Notes under the pieces: model-generated | Told to the model about the DNA's origin: nothing | Databases searched by the model: none | What the model saw: the letters and a program-made list of their open reading frames with translations, nothing else | Source: Bifidobacteriaceae bacterium | Lineage (GTDB): Bacteria > Actinomycetota > Actinomycetes > Actinomycetales > WQXJ01 | Reading direction: 5' to 3' | NCBI GenBank assembly: GCA_031270825.1 | Contig: JAISXH010000038.1 | Location: forward strand, 1 to 64,000 | DNA length: 64,000 nt | Translations under genes and position numbers: made by a program | Part shown: positions 131 to 53,380 of the stretch, one piece after another | How the letters are laid out: every line of letters starts with the position of its first letter | Position numbering within the stretch: position 1 is the stretch's first letter

Positions 131-267
131 GGATGCGAAACGTCGAACTCGACCCGGTCCGAGCCGGCTTGGGATGCAGAACGTCGAACTCGACCCGATT
201 TGGGATGCGAAACGTCGAACTCGACCCGGTCCGAGCCGGCTAGCGATGCAGAACGTCGAACTCGACC
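131..267 (+). repeat. Family A phased repeat array, left locus (4 copies)
   Basis: Four near-identical 23-24 bp cores begin at 131, 172, 203 and 244. Each contains the dyad GTCGAACTCGAC (arms GTCGA/TCGAC). Spacing alternates 41, 31 and 41 bp, so the array is two copies of a 72-bp dimer. The same family returns at 52668-53102. The rest of 1-355 holds no gene that I can support; open frames there simply translate the repeats. Confidence 0.9.
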
Positions 268-355
268 TGGTTTAGTTGACGAAAGGCGCCGCTTGGGGGC
301 GCAGTTGACGAAGGGCGTGCCTCGGCGCCGGAACGGTGGCGCCGAAACGGCGGCG

Positions 356-33659: not shown

Positions 33660-33674
33660 CCATCCCCCACGCAA

Positions 33675-33745
33675 GGGGACGGTGACCCTGCGGAATTCCG
33701 CAAGGGGACGGTGATCCTGCGGAATTCCGCACGGGGACGGTGATC
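33675..33745. repeat. Family B repeat, two 29-bp units plus a partial
   Basis: Units at 33675, 33704 and 33733 (the last truncated). This variant carries TGCGGAATTCCGCA, a perfect 14-bp palindrome, where the 1050 array has CTGCTGATTCCGCA. The block begins 16 bp after the rsmE stop. Confidence 0.9.
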
Positions 33746-46060: not shown

Positions 46061-46158
46061 TTGGACGATGCCGTCTGCTCACGTCCCAGCCCCGTCTGCG
46101 GTCGTCACCTTGATCGAACCTTGACCGAATCCGGGGGGCGCCTGAAAGGCGGGGCCTT

Positions 46159-48609
46159 ATGTTGGACCGTATGACGTTGACGGATGCTGAGCCGCGCGTG
46201 GTCGATCTGGCGCTGACGGGGATGACCTGCGCCGCCTGCGCCGCCCGGATCGAGAAGAAGCTCAACCGGATCGAAGGCGTCCAAGCCAGTGTCAACCTGG
46301 CTCTGGAGACCGCCGCCGTCGAAGTGACTGGCGAGGTCACCGCCGCCGATCTGATCAAAGCGGTCGAGGCCGCCGGCTACGGCGCCAAACAAGTCGAGCC
46401 GGCTGGGCGACCGGGCGGCGCTGGCAGCGATGCCGCCGCCGAGGCGGATGCTCAGTTCGAAGCGGAAGGCGTCGAGCCGGCCGAAGCCGATCCGACCGCG
46501 CGGCTGCGCCAGCGGTTGATCATCTGCTTGGTGCTGACCGTGCCGGTTCTGTTGTTGGCGATGGTGCCGCCGTTCCAGTTCACCTACTGGCAGTGGGCGT
46601 CGTTGACTTTGGCGGCGCCGGTCGCGGTCTGGGGCGCCTATCCCTTCCACCGCGCGGCCTGGATCAACCTGCGCCACGGCGCCGCCACCATGGACACCTT
46701 GATTTCGTTGGGAGTCACCGCCGCCTTCCTGTGGTCGCTTTGGGCGCTGTTCCTGGGCGGCGCCGGCATGCCCGGCATGCGCATGGAGTTCACCTTGGTG
46801 GGCGGCGACCGGGCCGAAATCTACCTTGAAGTGGCCGCCGCGGTGACGGTGTTCATCCTGGCCGGACGCTATTTCGAGGCCCGTGCCAAGCGCCGCTCCG
46901 GCGCCGCCTTGAGGGCGCTGCTGGACTTGGGCGCCAAGACGGTGTCTTTGCTGCCGGAGGGACTGGACGGCCCAGAGCTGTCGGTTCCGGTGGAGCGCCT
47001 GCAGGTGGGAGACCTGTTCGTGGTCCGCCCGGGCGAGAAGATCGCCACCGACGGCGTGGTCCGCGACGGCGCCAGCGCCGTCGACGCGTCGCTGCTGACC
47101 GGCGAATCGGTCCCGGTCGAGGTGGTTGCCGGCGACACGGTCGCCGGCGCCACCATCGCGGTCGAGGGACGCCTGGTGGTGGAGGCGACGCGCGTCGGCT
47201 CAGACACCGCTCTGGCTCAGATCGCCCGCCTGGTCTCGAACGCCCAGAGCGGCAAAGCGCAGGTCCAGCGCCTGGCAGACCGCGTCTCCGGGGTGTTCGT
47301 CCCCATCGTGGTGACGATTTCGCTGGTCACGTTGGCGTCCTGGCTGATCGCCACCGGCCAGCCGACGCGCGCCTTCACGGCCGCCGTGGCGGTGCTGATC
47401 ATCGCCTGCCCCTGCGCGCTGGGCCTGGCCACCCCGACCGCGTTGCTGGTCGGCACCGGGCGTGGCGCCCAACTGGGCATCCTGATCAAGGGCCCGGAGG
47501 TGCTAGAGGCGGTCCGCCGCGTCGACACGGTGGTCCTGGACAAGACCGGCACCGTCACCACCGGCCGTATGACCGTGGCCGGCGTGATCCTGGCAGAGGG
47601 CCAGGACGCGGCCCGGTTCGAGCGCTTCGTCGGCGCCGTCGAATCATTCTCCGAACACCCGGTGGCCGTGGCCATCACCCAATACGTGGCCGACCAGGCC
47701 GAGGCCGGGGATGCGGTTGTCGCTGTGTCGGAGCCAGGCGCCTTGTCGCCGTCGGTGGCCGGGGCCGTTGAGCCGGGCGCCAGCGCCCTCGCGCGGGCCG
47801 GGGCTGTCGACGAGGGCGTCGCCGCCCTCCTGCGGGCTGGGGCGCAGCCCGCTGTGGTGACTGATTTCGCCGCCGTGCCTGGCCGGGGTGTGCGCGGAAG
47901 CGTCGACGGGACCACGGTTTTCGCGGGCAAGCCCGACTGGGTGCGCGGCGAAGGGCTGGTGCTGAGCGATGCCTTGGCGGACGGCATCGGGCAAGCGGAA
48001 GATCTGGGCCAGACCGTGACGGCTGTGGGCTGGGACGGTCGAGTGCGCGGCATCGTCGCGGTGGCGGATTCGCCCAAGCCGACTGCGGCGGCGGCGGTGG
48101 CGGAGTTGAAGCGCCTGCGGCTCACTCCGGTGCTCCTGACCGGCGACAATCGGCGGGCGGCGGAGGCGATCGGCGCGGCGGTCGGCATCGAACGGGTGAT
48201 CGCGGGCGTGCTTCCGGGCGAGAAGGTCGAGGTCATCAAGGGCTTGCAGGCCGAGGGCGCCGTTGTCGCCATGGTCGGCGACGGGATCAACGACGCCGCC
48301 GCGTTGGCCACCGCCAACCTGGGCATGGCCATGGGCACCGGCACCGACGCGGCGATCGAGGCCAGCGATCTGACTCTGGTGCGCGGCGATCCCCGGACCG
48401 TGCCAGACGCGATCCGGCTGTCGGCCGCGACCCTGCGGATCATCAAGTCGAACCTGTTCTGGGCCTTCGCCTACAACACGGCAGCCGTGCCCCTGGCCGC
48501 ATTCGGCCTGCTCGGCCCCCTGATCGCTGGCGGCGCCATGGCTATCAGCTCAGCCTTCGTGGTCTCCAACTCCCTGCGCCTGCGCCGCTTCAAAGCCTGG
48601 TCCCAATAA
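46159..48609 (+). CDS. copA: Copper-type P1B ATPase
   Basis: 816 residues. An N-terminal heavy-metal domain has [14 protein letters not shown] (Cys24 and Cys27). Eight membrane helices include the ion-binding [15 protein letters not shown]. Other motifs are the phosphorylation site [20 protein letters not shown] and [15 protein letters not shown]. The CPC helix fits Cu(I) export. The nucleotide domain carries an extra Ala/Gly/Val-rich stretch of about 50 residues (about 520-570) that most CopA proteins lack. No CsoR or CopZ gene is adjacent. ATG 46159 or 46171 may be the start; a GAAAGGCGGGG site favours the first. Family B repeats follow its stop. Confidence 0.93.
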
Positions 48610-48636
48610 CCCCCTCCCGCCTCCGCCCATACGCAA

Positions 48637-48702
48637 GGGGACGGTGATTGTGCTGAATTCCGCAGCGGGACGGTGATCCTGCTGAATTCCGCGGGGGGTC
48701 GG
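48637..48702. repeat. Family B repeat, two 29-bp units plus a partial
   Basis: Units start at 48637, 48666 and 48695 with 29-bp periodicity, the third truncated. The block begins 28 bp after the copA stop and abuts the tcmP C-terminal fragment on the other side. Confidence 0.88.
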
Positions 48703-48705
48703 TGA

Positions 48706-48933
48706 TCTCGCCCTCAACGTCATCATCAAACAGCGTGCCCTGGCTAAAGGCCTCAATGTGGATGGCCAGGTTGTCCGGGCGCTTCATCATGTTGTCCGCC
48801 ATCAGGATGCAGCCTGCTGCGTGGTTGGTCGCATAGACCATACGGTACTTGGGCTGCTGCCGCTCCTTCAGTCTGATCGGCATCGACAACACGTACTCGA
48901 AGGTCTCTCGGTTGTTATAGGGCGGCGTATAGG
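48706..48933 (-). pseudogene. C-terminal fragment of three-Cys-motif partner protein TcmP
   Basis: The minus strand encodes ETFEYVLSMPIRLKERQQ followed by PKYRMVYATNHAAGCILMAD and an acidic tail. I recognise this as the end of TcmP proteins (families have a conserved Y-x-x-x-ATNH-x-x-G-x-x-LM-x-D block). There is no start codon or N-terminal domain. The matching N-terminal fragment lies at 51806-52030 on the same strand, in the right order, so one gene was split and its middle lost or displaced. Confidence 0.65.
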
Positions 48934-48946
48934 GCATGCTGGGTGT

Positions 48947-49162
48947 GTGGTCAAGACGAGTGTGTATCTGGAGGAGGAGCAGAAGGCGGCGTTGGACGAG
49001 GTGTCCAAGTTGACAGGCAAGCCTTTGGCCGAGTTGTTGCGCGACGGAGTGGACCAGGTCATCCACGACCATCTGAGGCGCCGCCCAGCGATGCAGGAGG
49101 CGTTCAACGCCCCCGACATGGTGGGCCGCACAGACGAGTTGTTGGAGGACCTCGGCGCATGA
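48947..49162 (+). CDS. vapB: Ribbon-helix-helix antitoxin, VapB-like
   Basis: 71 residues from GTG 48947. The N-terminus KTSVYLEEEQKAALDEVSKL is a ribbon-helix-helix pattern and is followed by TGKPLAELLRDGVDQVI. The C-terminal tail (DMVGRTDELLEDLGA) would wrap the toxin. Its stop overlaps the PIN toxin start (ATGA), the normal VapBC design. It would bind both the toxin and the shared promoter. It lies between the two halves of a broken tcmP gene. Confidence 0.85.
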   Translation: MVKTSVYLEEEQKAALDEVSKLTGKPLAELLRDGVDQVIHDHLRRRPAMQEAFNAPDMVGRTDELLEDLGA

Positions 49163-49611
49163 GGGTCGTCGCGGACACGAGCGGGATCGTGGCGGCGCTC
49201 AACGCCGCCGAGCCCGGCCATGGGCGTTTCCGCGCGGTCCTGGAGTCGGCCGCGGCGGTGTTCATAACCGAGGCTGTCGTCACCGAGGTCCACCACGTGC
49301 TCGCGTCGGGCGGCCAGGCGGTGGCCGCCAACGCCTTCCTCGACGCTGTCGCCGATGGCTTCTACGAACTTGTGCCCATCACGGCCGCCGAGCATGCCGA
49401 GGCGGCCGACCTGGTCCGCCGCTACGAGGGCCGCATGCGGCGAAAGAAACGCAAACCCGGATCGCTGGACGTGGCTGACGCGATGAACGTGATCGCGGGG
49501 CGCCGGGTGGCGACCAACCTCCTTGTGACTGGGGACCAGGACTACCGCTCGGTCGTGCCGTTGACAGAGCACCCCGCATTCGTGCTTCTACCCGCCGACC
49601 AGGAGTTCTAG
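49159..49611 (+). CDS. vapC: PIN-domain ribonuclease toxin, VapC-like
   Basis: 150 residues. PIN acidic residues are visible: Asp6 in VVADTSGIVAAL, Glu in ITEAVVTEVHH, and Asp in GSLDVADAMNVI, ending with NLLVTGDQDYRSV. VapC toxins cut tRNA or rRNA when the antitoxin is degraded. The gene is intact, overlaps its antitoxin by four bases, and is probably functional, in contrast to the second toxin of the island, which is frameshifted. Confidence 0.88.
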   Translation: MRVVADTSGIVAALNAAEPGHGRFRAVLESAAAVFITEAVVTEVHHVLASGGQAVAANAFLDAVADGFYELVPITAAEHAEAADLVRRYEGRMRRKKRKPGSLDVADAMNVIAGRRVATNLLVTGDQDYRSVVPLTEHPAFVLLPADQEF

Positions 49612-49750
49612 CGTCTCTTGAGGTCGAGGCCAAGGGTTTCGCCACGACCTCCGCGCCGGGGCCCCGCCCGCTGTCCCATCGCCTCCGCAGACGCTGGACG
49701 ATGCCGCCCACCGGGCCGGGCGGACCCAAACGCACCAGCGTGTTTGGCTA

Positions 49751-51217
49751 TTGCGCAAGCTTAACGCTGGTTGGCTTAATCGGCGGACGCTGGTCTTCGT
49801 CCACCTCGGCGGCCCGCGAATCGACCGCCCGGCGCACCGCGTTCCACACCTCCGGCTAACACCTTTCAACGCGTCGACCTGGGACTGGGCCGCCCTCGCG
49901 TTCACGCTCGAACGGGGCGACGCCGACCTGCTGGAGCAGTCCGCGCCGGAAGCTGAGGCGAACGGGCGCCGGGCCCTGTTGGCTCGGATAATCGCGGCGG
50001 GCGACGCGCTGGAGGCGACGGCGTCCGAGCAGATCGCGCGGGGCCAGCGGGCCGGCACGCTGCGGGACGACCTGCCGGAACAGGCCACCGGAATGGTGTC
50101 GTGGGCGTTCATCGCGGCGCTTTCGGACCTGGCGGAGCGCAAGGCGGTCTACGCCGAGGCGCGCCTGGCGTTGACGCCATCGGACTTGGCGGCCGCCGGC
50201 ATGTCCCTGATCTGGGGCGGCCTGTTGACCCCGGACGTCGCGGCGAGCGCGGACGGAGGCGGCGAGTGGCCGGTCATATCGCTGGGCGCGTTCGCGGAGA
50301 ACTTCGTCCGGGCGCTGGCGGCGCACGGCCTGGAGACGACAGTGACATTGGACGATGACGCGCTGCCGGTCGCCGTCGCGCACAGCGGCTCGGCCCACGC
50401 GGCCGCCCCGGCGGACCTGGCGGCGATGGCCACCCGCCACGCCGAGAAGCGGCCGATGAACGGCGCCGCCTTGACGGTTGACGACTGGGAGCGGTTGGCC
50501 CGGCCCGGAGCGCTGGGCCGGTCCGGGGCCGGCGTGGAGTTGGCCTGGTGGCCGCGCGGCACATCCGAGTTCGACCACTTGGCGCGGGAAACCAAGGAGG
50601 CGTTCGAAGCGCAAGCCGGTGACCCGGCGGCGCGGTCCGAACTGGCCGGCTGGCTGAGGTTCTCCGACGCCGAGACCCGCGAGCGCCGAGACGGACTGCC
50701 CGCTGAGCAACTCGCGCTGACCGGTTGGACCAAGACGCTCTACTACCTGACAACGTCCCGCCAGTCCGCCACCGGCGACAAATTCGCGGGCCAATCGGTG
50801 GCGAAGAACAACGCGCAAGTCAATGGCTGCGGGGCTTGGGCGGGTGGACGGCGAGTACGGCCAGAACAGCGGGATCAGGCGGGACATCGCAGCCTTCGTG
50901 ACGGCGGGATAACAGCTGCGGATCAGGCCCGCGGCGCCGCCTGCCTGCCGATGCCCAACCAGAAGCGCCCTCGCGACCCCCAAAGTCGCCGGCGCGAGCA
51001 AGAACGGGCAGCAGACGCGGGACGACCCCGCCCAGCGGGCCGAGTGGTCCCAAACCGACCTGCGTGCCTTGATCGTCGGGATGAAACTCATCGCCGCTTG
51101 GGTCCCGCTGCGGCCGCCGCGAGGAGCGCGCGGTCGCCAGGTCAGGTCCCGCCCAGTGGCAGCCCCCGACCGCCAACAGGCGGGGTCGGCGATCCCAGCG
51201 CACTCGTGTCGCACTAA
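49751..51217 (+). CDS. Unrecognised ORF, coding character only in its middle
   Basis: An open frame of up to 488 codons. From about 49890 to 50810 the product looks like a folded, acidic protein (ALAFTLERGDADLLEQSAPE, GMVSWAFIAALSDLAERKAV, SLGAFAENFVRALAAHGLET, LTGWTKTLYYLTTS) with no family I know. After about 50820 it turns Arg/Pro/Gly-rich and no longer looks coded. The start is unclear: the first TTG has no ribosome site. It is probably an island gene damaged at its 3' end. The stretch 49612-49890 shows nothing else. Confidence 0.4.
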   Translation: MRKLNAGWLNRRTLVFVHLGGPRIDRPAHRVPHLRLTPFNASTWDWAALAFTLERGDADLLEQSAPEAEANGRRALLARIIAAGDALEATASEQIARGQRAGTLRDDLPEQATGMVSWAFIAALSDLAERKAVYAEARLALTPSDLAAAGMSLIWGGLLTPDVAASADGGGEWPVISLGAFAENFVRALAAHGLETTVTLDDDALPVAVAHSGSAHAAAPADLAAMATRHAEKRPMNGAALTVDDWERLARPGALGRSGAGVELAWWPRGTSEFDHLARETKEAFEAQAGDPAARSELAGWLRFSDAETRERRDGLPAEQLALTGWTKTLYYLTTSRQSATGDKFAGQSVAKNNAQVNGCGAWAGGRRVRPEQRDQAGHRSLRDGGITAADQARGAACLPMPNQKRPRDPQSRRREQERAADAGRPRPAGRVVPNRPACLDRRDETHRRLGPAAAAARSARSPGQVPPSGSPRPPTGGVGDPSALVSH

Positions 51218-51220
51218 CAT
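51215..51220 (+). promoter_or_regulatory. -10 box TAACAT, leaderless promoter
   Basis: TAACAT ends seven bases before ATG 51228 of the antitoxin gene. Confidence 0.5.
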
Positions 51221-51227
51221 TGTCAGT

Positions 51228-51512
51228 ATGGCATTGCAGACAACTCTCACTGTCCGCCTCGACTCAGAGGTCAAAGCGGCGGCCAAACAGCGCGCCGACG
51301 CCCTGGGTTTGTCCCTGTCCGCGGTGATATCCAACCAGTTGCGCCGCTTCATCAACGGCGCACCGGTCGTGATCGACGACGACTCGCTGATCCCCTCCGA
51401 GACGGTGGCCAAGGCCCGGCGCCAGGCGATGAGCGAGTACCGCTCTGGCCAGTACACGAGCCTCGACGGGTCCCAGGCGATCACCGACTACGACCCGGTA
51501 GCGCATGGGTGA
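51228..51512 (+). CDS. RelB/DinJ-family antitoxin
   Basis: 94 residues from ATG 51228. The N-terminal ribbon-helix-helix reads LTVRLDSEVKAAAKQRADAL with GLSLSAVISNQLRRFING, the RelB/DinJ pattern. The C-terminal tail (SEYRSGQYTSLDGSQAI) is the toxin-binding part. Leaderless -10 box. It overlaps the start of a RelE-like toxin by eight bases. The antitoxin frame is intact although the toxin is not. Confidence 0.85.
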   Translation: MALQTTLTVRLDSEVKAAAKQRADALGLSLSAVISNQLRRFINGAPVVIDDDSLIPSETVAKARRQAMSEYRSGQYTSLDGSQAITDYDPVAHG

Positions 51513-51815
51513 TCGAAAGATCGCGCGCTTCGCGGCCACTAAGCAGTACGGCAAGGCCTTCGCGAAGCTCTCTCCCAAAGCCCAGGCGAGGGTCAGCAGG
51601 CCCTGGAAGACGCCCTTGCGGACGTCGACGCGCCGAGACTCCATCTTCACGGGCTGACGGGGCAGTGGCTCGGCGTCTTCTCCGTCAACGCCGGCGGCGG
51701 CCTGCGCATTCTCTTCGAGGCTGTGGACGAGGATGGAGGATCGGCCGGCGCGGATTCCCGGTCGACGGTAGGCGTCCTGATCACCGTGGGAACCCACGCG
51801 CAGATCTACGGCTGA
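51505..51815 (+). pseudogene. RelE/ParE-type toxin with a frameshift
   Basis: ATG 51505 opens a toxin-like frame (RFAATKQYGKAFAKLSPKAQ) that ends early at 51655-51657. Shifting frame near 51585-51595 restores a full product: QQALEDALADVDAPRLHLHG, WLGVFSVNAGGGLRILFEAV and a final VGTHAQIYG, ending at 51815. The second half is the beta-sheet and C-terminus of RelE/YafQ-like mRNA interferases. One single-base change explains it. As written the toxin should be dead, unless programmed frameshifting occurs. Confidence 0.75.
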
Positions 51816-52030
51816 CCCACCCGGCTGCGGCGGACGGCGCCGCCCACCGGCGAGCCGGGGTTCTTGTCCAGGAACTCGCCCCGCCCAGCGAAACAGTCGA
51901 TGTACCGTATCGGCTTCCTGGTGTGGAGAACCTTCTGGAAGTAGGGCCTGAGGTAGTAGGCCAGTAAGTCGTCCTTGACCTGAGACCACGGCAGCTTCTT
52001 GTCGACGAAGTGGTCCTGTCTCTTAGCCAT
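51806..52030 (-). pseudogene. N-terminal fragment of TcmP (three-Cys-motif partner)
   Basis: 74 codons starting MAKRQDHFVDKKLPWSQVKD, then PYFQKVLHTRKPIRYIDCFA and GRGEFLDKNPGSPVG. This is the start of TcmP, including the YIDCFAGRG loop that resembles a methyltransferase SAM motif. Full TcmP proteins run to 350-400 residues; this one breaks off after GSPV and ends 12 codons later. Its ATG overlaps the DUF5131 stop by eight bases, the natural pairing of the two genes. The C-terminal part of TcmP lies at 48706-48933. Confidence 0.75.
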
Positions 52031-52478
52031 GCTGGGCGACCTTCATGTCCTCGATTGAGACGCCGAGCCAGAGGTTGGCGGGCCAGTCGATGTTGGCCGA
52101 CAGCTTTCGGGCGCGAGCGGCCCGCTTGGTCAAGACCTGGTGGGTGTGCTGTGGTGTCTCCCGGATCACCTCGATCAGGTCGTGGATGAAGGCGGCTGTG
52201 ACCTTGGCGTGGAACAGGTCGGACATGGAGTTGACGAAGACCATCCGGTGGCCATGCCACGTCTTCGGCGCGTCGAGCGCCTCGGGGTGCATCGTGACGC
52301 CGAAGCCCGGCCCGGAGGTGCGCGGGTCGCCATCATTCTGGTACTGCGGCATGCCCATCGCCCTGAGGCGACGGGCCATCGTCAAGGCGTAGCGGTGGTC
52401 GCAGCCAGCCGAGATGCGGTCGCAGCCCGTGACGGGGTTCCAGGTGAAGTCGGTCCACTCGATGCTGGTCTTCTTCAC
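52023..52478 (-). pseudogene. Truncated DUF5131 (Gp37/Gp68-type) protein, third Cys of the motif lost
   Basis: 151 residues from GTG 52478. It begins KKTSIEWTDFTWNPVTGC, the signature of DUF5131 proteins, whose three-cysteine motif resembles a radical-SAM cluster site. Cys19 and Cys26 are present but the third position, residue 29, is Arg (GCDHRYA where GCDxCYA is expected). The protein stops at LWLGVSIEDMKVAQHG, roughly two-thirds of the usual length. With the tcmP fragment after it, the pair looks inactivated. The phage-derived family name does not by itself mean a prophage is here. Confidence 0.75.
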
Positions 52479-52667
52479 ATGCGCTAACTTGTCACGATCC
52501 GCGCCGACGCCCCGTGAGGTGGGCCGAGGCGCGACAAGAACGCGCCCGGCATCTGGTTGGCCACCGCGCCCGCCGCACACCGGGCCGATTCCATCTTGGG
52601 CATTGCAGGTCTTGTCTGGGAGGGGATTCGGCTCGGATCGGGTGGCGGACGTTAGGCGCCTCCCGCC

Positions 52668-53102
52668 GACTTCGACGTTTAACATCCATTTGACCGCCGA
52701 GTTCGACGGTTCGCATCCATTTCTCTGGCGAGTTCGACGTTCTGCATGCCGCCTGTCCAACGTCTAGGCCGCTGACCAGCACAAACGCAAAATGCGCCGA
52801 TGCGAAACGTCGAACTCGATCCAATTTAGGATGCAAGCTGTCGAAGTCGAGGCGGTTGGGCACGCAGAACGTCGAACTCGACCAGGTCTTGACCAGGTCT
52901 GGCATGCAAACTGTCGAAGTCGAGGCGGTTGGACACGCAGAACGTCGAACTCGACCAGGTCTTGACCAGGCCTGGCATGCAAACTGTCGAACTCGGGCCG
53001 ATTCAGCATGCAGAACGTCGAACTCGGCCAGGTCTTGACCAGGTCTGGCATGCAAACTGTCGAAGTCGAGGCGGTTGGGCACGCAGAACGTCGAACTCGG
53101 TG
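52668..53102. repeat. Family A phased repeat array, right locus (12 copies, two orientations)
   Basis: Three inverted copies (about 52668, 52699, 52730; spacing 31) face nine direct copies starting at 52799, 52830, 52861, 52903, 52934, 52976, 53007, 53049 and 53080 (spacings 31, 31, 42, 31, 42, 31, 42, 31). Cores alternate between GCAGAACGTCGAACTCGAC and GCAAACTGTCGAAGTCGAG, so the unit is a 73-bp dimer. The stretch 52479-53380 has no other feature I can support. Confidence 0.92.
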
Positions 53103-53364
53103 CGGTCAGCCGCAGATGGCTCTCTGAATATGGAGGTGGATGGGGTCGGGGCGGCAGATGGTCGCGGGTCGGAGCATGGTGCTGAGCGACGTGGATGGCC
53201 TTGGGGCTGTGGGCCGAGGTGCGGATAGAGGGTGGCGATCACGGGGTGGAGGATGGGCGCGGCGCCGGTCGTGGGGGATGGACGCAGGCGGTGATCGCGG
53301 GCTTGGGAGATGGATATGGATGCGGGGGCGCGGGAGAAGCGCAGGGCGGGGAGCGTGGGCGGGG

Positions 53365-53370
53365 TAGGCT
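53365..53370 (+). promoter_or_regulatory. -10 box TAGGCT of the DAHP synthase gene
   Basis: TAGGCT ends ten bases before ATG 53381; there is no ribosome site, so the transcript has at most a few untranslated bases. Confidence 0.5.
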
Positions 53371-53380
53371 TACCAGCGCC

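Follow-up and report, generated by a model that had tools for sequence, protein, structure and literature searches.

The window analysed here, a 64,000-nucleotide stretch corresponding to bases 1–64000 of contig C5, belongs to the 2.94-Mb draft genome, in 70 contigs, of an uncultured bacterium that looks actinobacterial by its GC content of about 67%, an Rv2466c-like mycothiol-dependent gene and a class II DAHP synthase. Towards its right end, a 7.3-kb block (46061–53380) separates a phosphofructokinase-like gene from aroG; it is absent in relatives and contains a large gene of 816 amino acids, an RHH-PIN toxin-antitoxin pair, a short DUF5131 gene (151 aa, covering 142 of 243 profile positions) and apparently degraded neighbours. 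At the edge of this block lies an intergenic array of short repeats arranged as two arms of opposite orientation. The left arm (52663–52750, minus strand) consists of three 31-bp units whose 17-mer cores start at 52667, 52698 and 52729, while the right arm (52796–53103, plus strand) has nine units at 31- or 42-bp steps (copy starts 52802, 52833, 52864, 52906, 52937, 52979, 53010, 53052 and 53083). Recounting the copy starts reproduced exactly the spacings of 31, 31, 42, 31, 42, 31, 42 and 31 bp reported by the first-pass annotation for the right array, as well as the 31-bp steps of the three inverted copies. The latter had been listed as an extra; they are present but serve as the left arm in a symmetric arrangement, and the conserved centre of that element (52746–52801, plus strand) had been overlooked. 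The length of this centre is fixed, and within it lies a conserved core, GCTGACCAGCACAAACG (52771–52787, plus strand), common to the elements of related genomes. The alternation of two core types (GTCGAACTCGAC and GTCGAAGTCGAG) along the right arm was also borne out, and is explained by a 73-bp tandem block (52831–53099, plus strand; 3.7 copies of two units plus an 11-bp insert) that creates the 31/42 alternation as well.

The array is clearly not a random repeat. Allowing at most one mismatch, the dyad GTCGA-N2-TCGAC occurs 33 times in the window compared to 3.2 ± 1.7 times in shuffled sequence, and the genome contains 25 exact copies of the 12-mer against none of the reversed control. Together with the intergenic position of the copies and a step of 31 bp, which is not a multiple of three, these controls rule out both chance and the remnant of a coding repeat. 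A second array at the opposite end of the window (131–270, plus strand), previously considered a duplicate of the first, proved to be the right arm of another element. It contains four units of the right-arm type with starts at 135, 176, 207 and 248, confirming the reported spacings of 41, 31 and 41 bp, and is truncated by the start of the contig, where it adjoins an insertion-sequence-like end (bases 1 to about 116, minus strand, limits approximate; ..CGTCTCAATCAGCTTGACAGGTTCC). The same end also adjoins the terminal arrays of contigs C4 and C67, and contig breaks in general cluster at arrays. As the insertion sequences sit inside the arrays and not the reverse, the repeats are not remnants of a transposon end.

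Combining a genome search, targeted stretches and a position weight matrix, we found 84 units at approximately 27 places in the genome (consensus GATTTRGGATGCRAAACGTCGAACTCGACCC). Complete elements are present twice on C4 and once each on C5, C6, C12, C16, C32, C35 and C67, and all share one layout, in which the centre has between one and four minus-strand units to its left and between one and nine plus-strand units to its right. In every one of these nine elements the starts of the innermost units are 73 or 74 bp apart, equivalent to 82–83 bp between dyad axes, and the conserved centre GCTGACCAGCACAAACGC is retained (consensus CGCTTGAGCCGCTGACCAGCACAAACGCAAAATG, with 49 of 107 columns invariant across the nine). 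The linkers differ between left-arm and right-arm units, indicating that whole elements are related by descent and that the arms grow via tandem duplication. According to codon-usage gene calls the elements are intergenic, with every class of gene orientation represented; we saw no genes inside them and no recurrent neighbours, and the flanks in this genome are mostly housekeeping genes.

The spacing of the units is strikingly regular. Among 46 same-strand steps in the genome, 38 measure 31 bp, three 41 bp, three 42 bp, and one each 30 and 28 bp, so that 44 of the 46 conform to the 31/41/42-bp pattern and the preferred spacing holds genome-wide. In relatives carrying different unit sequences, the 31-bp step accounts for 114 of 121 same-strand spacings. 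Independent changes in the length between units amount to +10, +10 and +11 bp, with −1 and −3 bp also seen, the three 42-bp steps being a single event copied in tandem. The lengths 31, 41, 42 and 82 agree with one helical repeat, of about 10.3 bp per turn, and 99.3% of random length sets fit less well; because the null was chosen after the data had been seen, we treat this fit of unit and centre lengths as suggestive. The initial proposal that every core lies on one face of the helix thus stands as far as a real, non-coding and phased array is concerned, while the cooperative protein binding attached to it is a suggestion drawn from geometry. Part of the 31-bp step could also be inherited through tandem duplication instead of being maintained by selection.

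The first-pass annotation further envisaged a dimer bound to each dyad, an idea that the composition of the units does not support. Conservation within the unit is asymmetric (TGCRAAACGTCGAACTCG), extending upstream (ATGCRAAAC) without a mirror image downstream, and whereas the CGA/TCG on the inside of the dyad hardly varies, just 42% of 52 units retain the T-A pair on its outside. In addition, the units of related subfamilies (..TGTTGGTCTCGAT, ..TGGCGTACTCGAT and ..GCGGGCACTCGAT) lack the GTCGA-N2-TCGAC dyad, which is therefore not the defining feature of the elements.

These subfamilies emerged from searches of relatives with a sequence-only model of the core region and with a core pattern. 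The unit of this genome itself was not found in congeners, nor did it match phages, plasmids or viral contigs; a wide taxonomic spread was dismissed as chance, since 82 GTDB contigs match the unit once each and none contains an array. In contrast, the core model detected nine elements in the congener G001 and one in G015, a member of another genus, and a search of 396 genomes of the order with the core pattern revealed about ten elements in G006 and one in G005 (order-level matches beyond the element family are mostly single, carry one mismatch and look like chance). The unit reads (A)AATGTTGGTCTCGATT in G001, with GAATGGCGTACTCGATGA replacing it in one element, AATTGTCGGT[C/G]TCGATG in G006 and G005 (short form ..TGTCGGT[C/G]TCGAT), and TGCAAAAGCGGGCACTCGATGA in G015. 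Common to all are an A-run, seven variable bases and (C/G)TCGA. The subfamilies share the same plan, the same centre and the 31-bp step, and the units of the two arms have changed in step with each other. Measured between anchors, which differ by subfamily, the span across the core is 95, 96, 97 or 92 and does not vary inside any one subfamily. Only some species of the genus carry elements, and no arrays turned up in G002, G003, G007 or G009. Two possible relatives with other spacings were also noted, one in G013 (L397, contig C18), where GCTGACCTGCACAAACGC lies between the inverted arms CACGAAAGGTCAATTCCG and CGGAATTGACCTTTCGTG, and one in G010 (L396, contig C220), where GTTGACCAGCGCAAACGC lies beside TGCGCATACTTTTGGC repeats. 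The arrays of congeners often lie no more than a few kb away from genes of toxin-antitoxin or restriction-modification systems (L278, L280, L282, L284, L285 and L287), including MazE-like, AbiEii, PIN, HTH-nucleotidyltransferase with HepT-like, and C5 methylase genes.

The mirrored arms might act in cis as a hairpin or cruciform. They could pair as RNA, in a terminator, a non-coding RNA or a structure that stabilises a transcript, or as DNA that is either extruded or single-stranded. The geometry permits a nested pairing, which is stable (z = −5.0), and the arms are complementary across subfamilies: 86.8% of 418 cells are paired compared to 27–42% in slid controls, double changes number 67 compared to 28.8 ± 4.4 in shuffled data, and a consensus fold includes four pairs showing such changes. 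Copy by copy, however, compensatory change between the arms is not supported and coordination appears only between subfamilies. Within the genome, matching left and right units resemble each other no more than random left-right pairs do (334 versus 333.3 ± 3.5, p = 0.48; the strong conservation of the units limits the power of this test), and the innermost units of G006 retain a G-G mismatch (C at L1 in 10 of 10 elements and G at R1 in 8 of 10). One change unique to the C6 element is common to its L1 and R1. The lack of copy-by-copy covariation argues against a hairpin and for a reader that recognises single units in trans; the likeness of the arms may then simply reflect that the units of one genome are held to a single sequence. 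Unequal copy numbers in the two arms (three and nine at this locus) and the absence of any orientation preference relative to genes also speak against pairing, and a known structured RNA was ruled out since the element matched no Rfam family. Overall, we consider a cis-acting hairpin quite unlikely.

Comparison with relatives indicates that the two loci tested lie in insertions that the relatives lack. At aroG, the upstream phosphofructokinase-like gene lies 55–63 bp away in G009 and G007 and 7.3 kb away here, array included; at the C6 locus, about 900 bp containing the element correspond to a 47-bp gap in G009, a comparison that yielded no clean empty site. The elements of this genome have no common outer ends that we could find, whereas the copies of G001 share longer flanks. 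The elements may be mobile, as their copy number and species-specific positions suggest. Such properties would also suit a passive repeat resembling REPs and BIMEs, with no dedicated reader, spread by slippage or recombination and serving as a landing site for insertion sequences: the elements are intergenic, species-specific and variable in copy number, and insertion sequences recur at them (four of the six known ends of an integrase-core transposase element and all three ends seen of another lie in or at arrays), as they do at REPs (PMC1525189). This reading, which we regard as unlikely, is at odds with a step and a centre distance that are strictly kept across subfamilies despite the replaced units and with the coordinated change of the two arms, both of which need a common reader or copying mechanism, and also with the head-to-tail arrangement of the arms, unlike that of REP pairs. 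The integrase-core insertion sequence itself (L230; G000 C31:100840–102424) encodes rve and rve_3 domains and has the ends CCCTAACTGTCAAGCTGTGGTGAGACGTCG.

Among known systems the elements are closest to REP/BIME repeats, which fall into GTAG and CGTC super-families associated with RAYT transposases (PMC3733652; PMC2817692). Like these, they are short, intergenic, geneless, dispersed, partly species-specific families of mixed orientation that are targeted by insertion sequences (PMC3733652; PMC2817692), and the 84 units at about 27 loci agree with the high-copy, extragenic nature of REPs. Yet they differ in tag, orientation and RAYT linkage. A REP is defined as a 20–40 bp palindrome with an unpaired GTAG or CGTC tag and an 8–9 bp stem (PMC3733652); here, CGTC falls inside a 5-bp dyad that is itself missing in related subfamilies. 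REP pairs are mainly head-to-head or tail-to-tail and rarely head-to-tail, while every within-arm step in our elements is head-to-tail, the units following each other at a strict 31-bp step in two mirror arms with a conserved core between them. Nor is there a REPtron, in which REPs flank a RAYT gene: the genome has a sole Y1_Tnp gene, the repeat flanking it, GGGGACAGGCCCC, is unrelated, and a RAYT-borne REP was rejected on that account. This RAYT-like Y1 transposase gene (L229; G000 C64:1–1370) has AACCAAAATGGGGACAGGCCCCTTTCTGGTAACTCCCAGC repeats on both sides and scores 73.5 bits against NF047646, below the cut-off of 80.

Other comparisons are less close. In the iteron arrays of replication or partition origins, such as plasmid iterons and R1 parC with its two iteron sets around a promoter, direct repeats lie whole helical turns apart and recruit a cognate DNA-binding protein that evolves fast. 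The elements share the whole-turn direct repeats and the two sets flanking a functional core, but occur in many chromosomal copies, have mirrored sets and no adjacent cognate gene, and surround a core that is not an identified promoter or origin. MITEs, which have fixed terminal inverted repeats and a target-site duplication, are likewise small, non-autonomous and dispersed with inverted arms; here, however, the arms are expandable arrays and the conserved part is the middle, not the ends. As in CRISPR arrays, short repeats recur at regular spacing, but the approximately 11-bp linkers are themselves repeated, the arms are inverted and the unit varies between species; lacking spacers, the array was rejected as a CRISPR. 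We place the elements among interspersed repeats, as a novel variant that has a considerable chance of being a class of its own.

A chromosomal protein nucleating on the phased array was the function originally put forward, as a host-owned nucleoid, partition or silencing site. Sites phased on one helix face, several per genome and intergenic, would suit such a role. Core sites that organise the chromosome, actinobacterial parS among them, are conserved between genera; the element unit does not resemble the parS palindrome bound by ParB, TGTTTCACGTGAAACA, and the elements are scattered, variable in number, restricted to some species of the genus, built from different units and inserted at species-specific intergenic positions. 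A partition or silencing role is hence not upheld, and a host-owned site of any of these kinds seems to us improbable.

The reading we favour, with somewhat more confidence than doubt, is that the array represents a single copy of an interspersed, intergenic and non-autonomous element with trans-read iteron arms around a conserved core. The sequences themselves show the architecture, with two arms of 31-bp iterons in mirror orientation on either side of a conserved core of about 40 bp, as well as its copies, its constancy in relatives with other units, the lack of covariation between the arms of single copies, and insertion sequences inside the arms. The arms probably grow outward, lengthening and shortening through tandem duplication. 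A trans-acting factor specific for the sequence would read each unit; it is most likely a DNA-binding protein, with a specificity that shifts between lineages. Factors bound three (or four) helical turns apart would align on the same side of the helix and assemble symmetrically about the core, at which a more widely conserved activity may act. The element probably spreads passively, recognised by the arm-reading factor. That geometry and core are kept while unit sequences differ between relatives suggests that a fast-changing factor reads the repeats. No candidate gene for this reader was found, the elements having neither an internal gene nor a recurrent neighbour. Bacterial interspersed repeats are usually explained as RAYT-moved hairpins; in this case the geometry (31-bp pitch, mirror arms and core distance) persists, and what differs from species to species is the repeat sequence, which changes simultaneously in the two arms. 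Such a pattern is the signature expected of a DNA reader coevolving with its sites, and the five subfamilies provide test pairs with which this reader could be sought.

The core also occurs outside the arrays. With two changes it forms the centre, GCTGACCAGCGGAAACG, of a second dispersed repeat family of about 128 bp, with 43 matches in this genome and many in congeners (for example, G000 C26:59163–59290, C48:19148–19275 and L096), which folds into a strong multi-hairpin structure (−75 kcal/mol, z −8.7). In viral contigs the motif GCTGACCWGCGSAAACGC was found in 59 stretches (L289–L347, some redundant) compared to seven for the reversed pattern; most lie in intergenic DNA and point the same way as the gene that follows. 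Annotated phages gave no match in the two contexts examined, and no paper among those searched gave the core sequence in a relevant context. Reading the core as a promoter (TTGAGC-N18-TAAAAT) was rejected because its −10-like hexamer varies from copy to copy. The presence of the motif in the second family and in viral contigs implies that the core may be read by something more widespread than the reader of the arms, and by tying the elements to another repeat family and to phage genomes the motif makes its own function testable. More tentatively, the elements may constitute a previously undescribed class: mirror iteron arrays of 31-bp pitch with lineage-specific units, on which a rapidly diversifying protein would assemble a symmetric, filament-like complex at a core that also occurs alone in actinobacterial phage contigs. 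If this possibility were true, that complex would represent a platform for recombination, replication or defence.

In some of the viral copies of GCTGACCWGCGSAAACGC the TGA doubles as the stop codon of the gene before it, and in some a near-complement, GCAGGTCAG, follows. Finally, a third repeat family of tandem 28–29-bp units, CGCAAGGGGACGGTGATCCTGCTGATTC, is present in the window at 1045–1164, 33670–33745 and 48638–48707, and also adjoins single array units on contigs C2, C31, C37 and C63.
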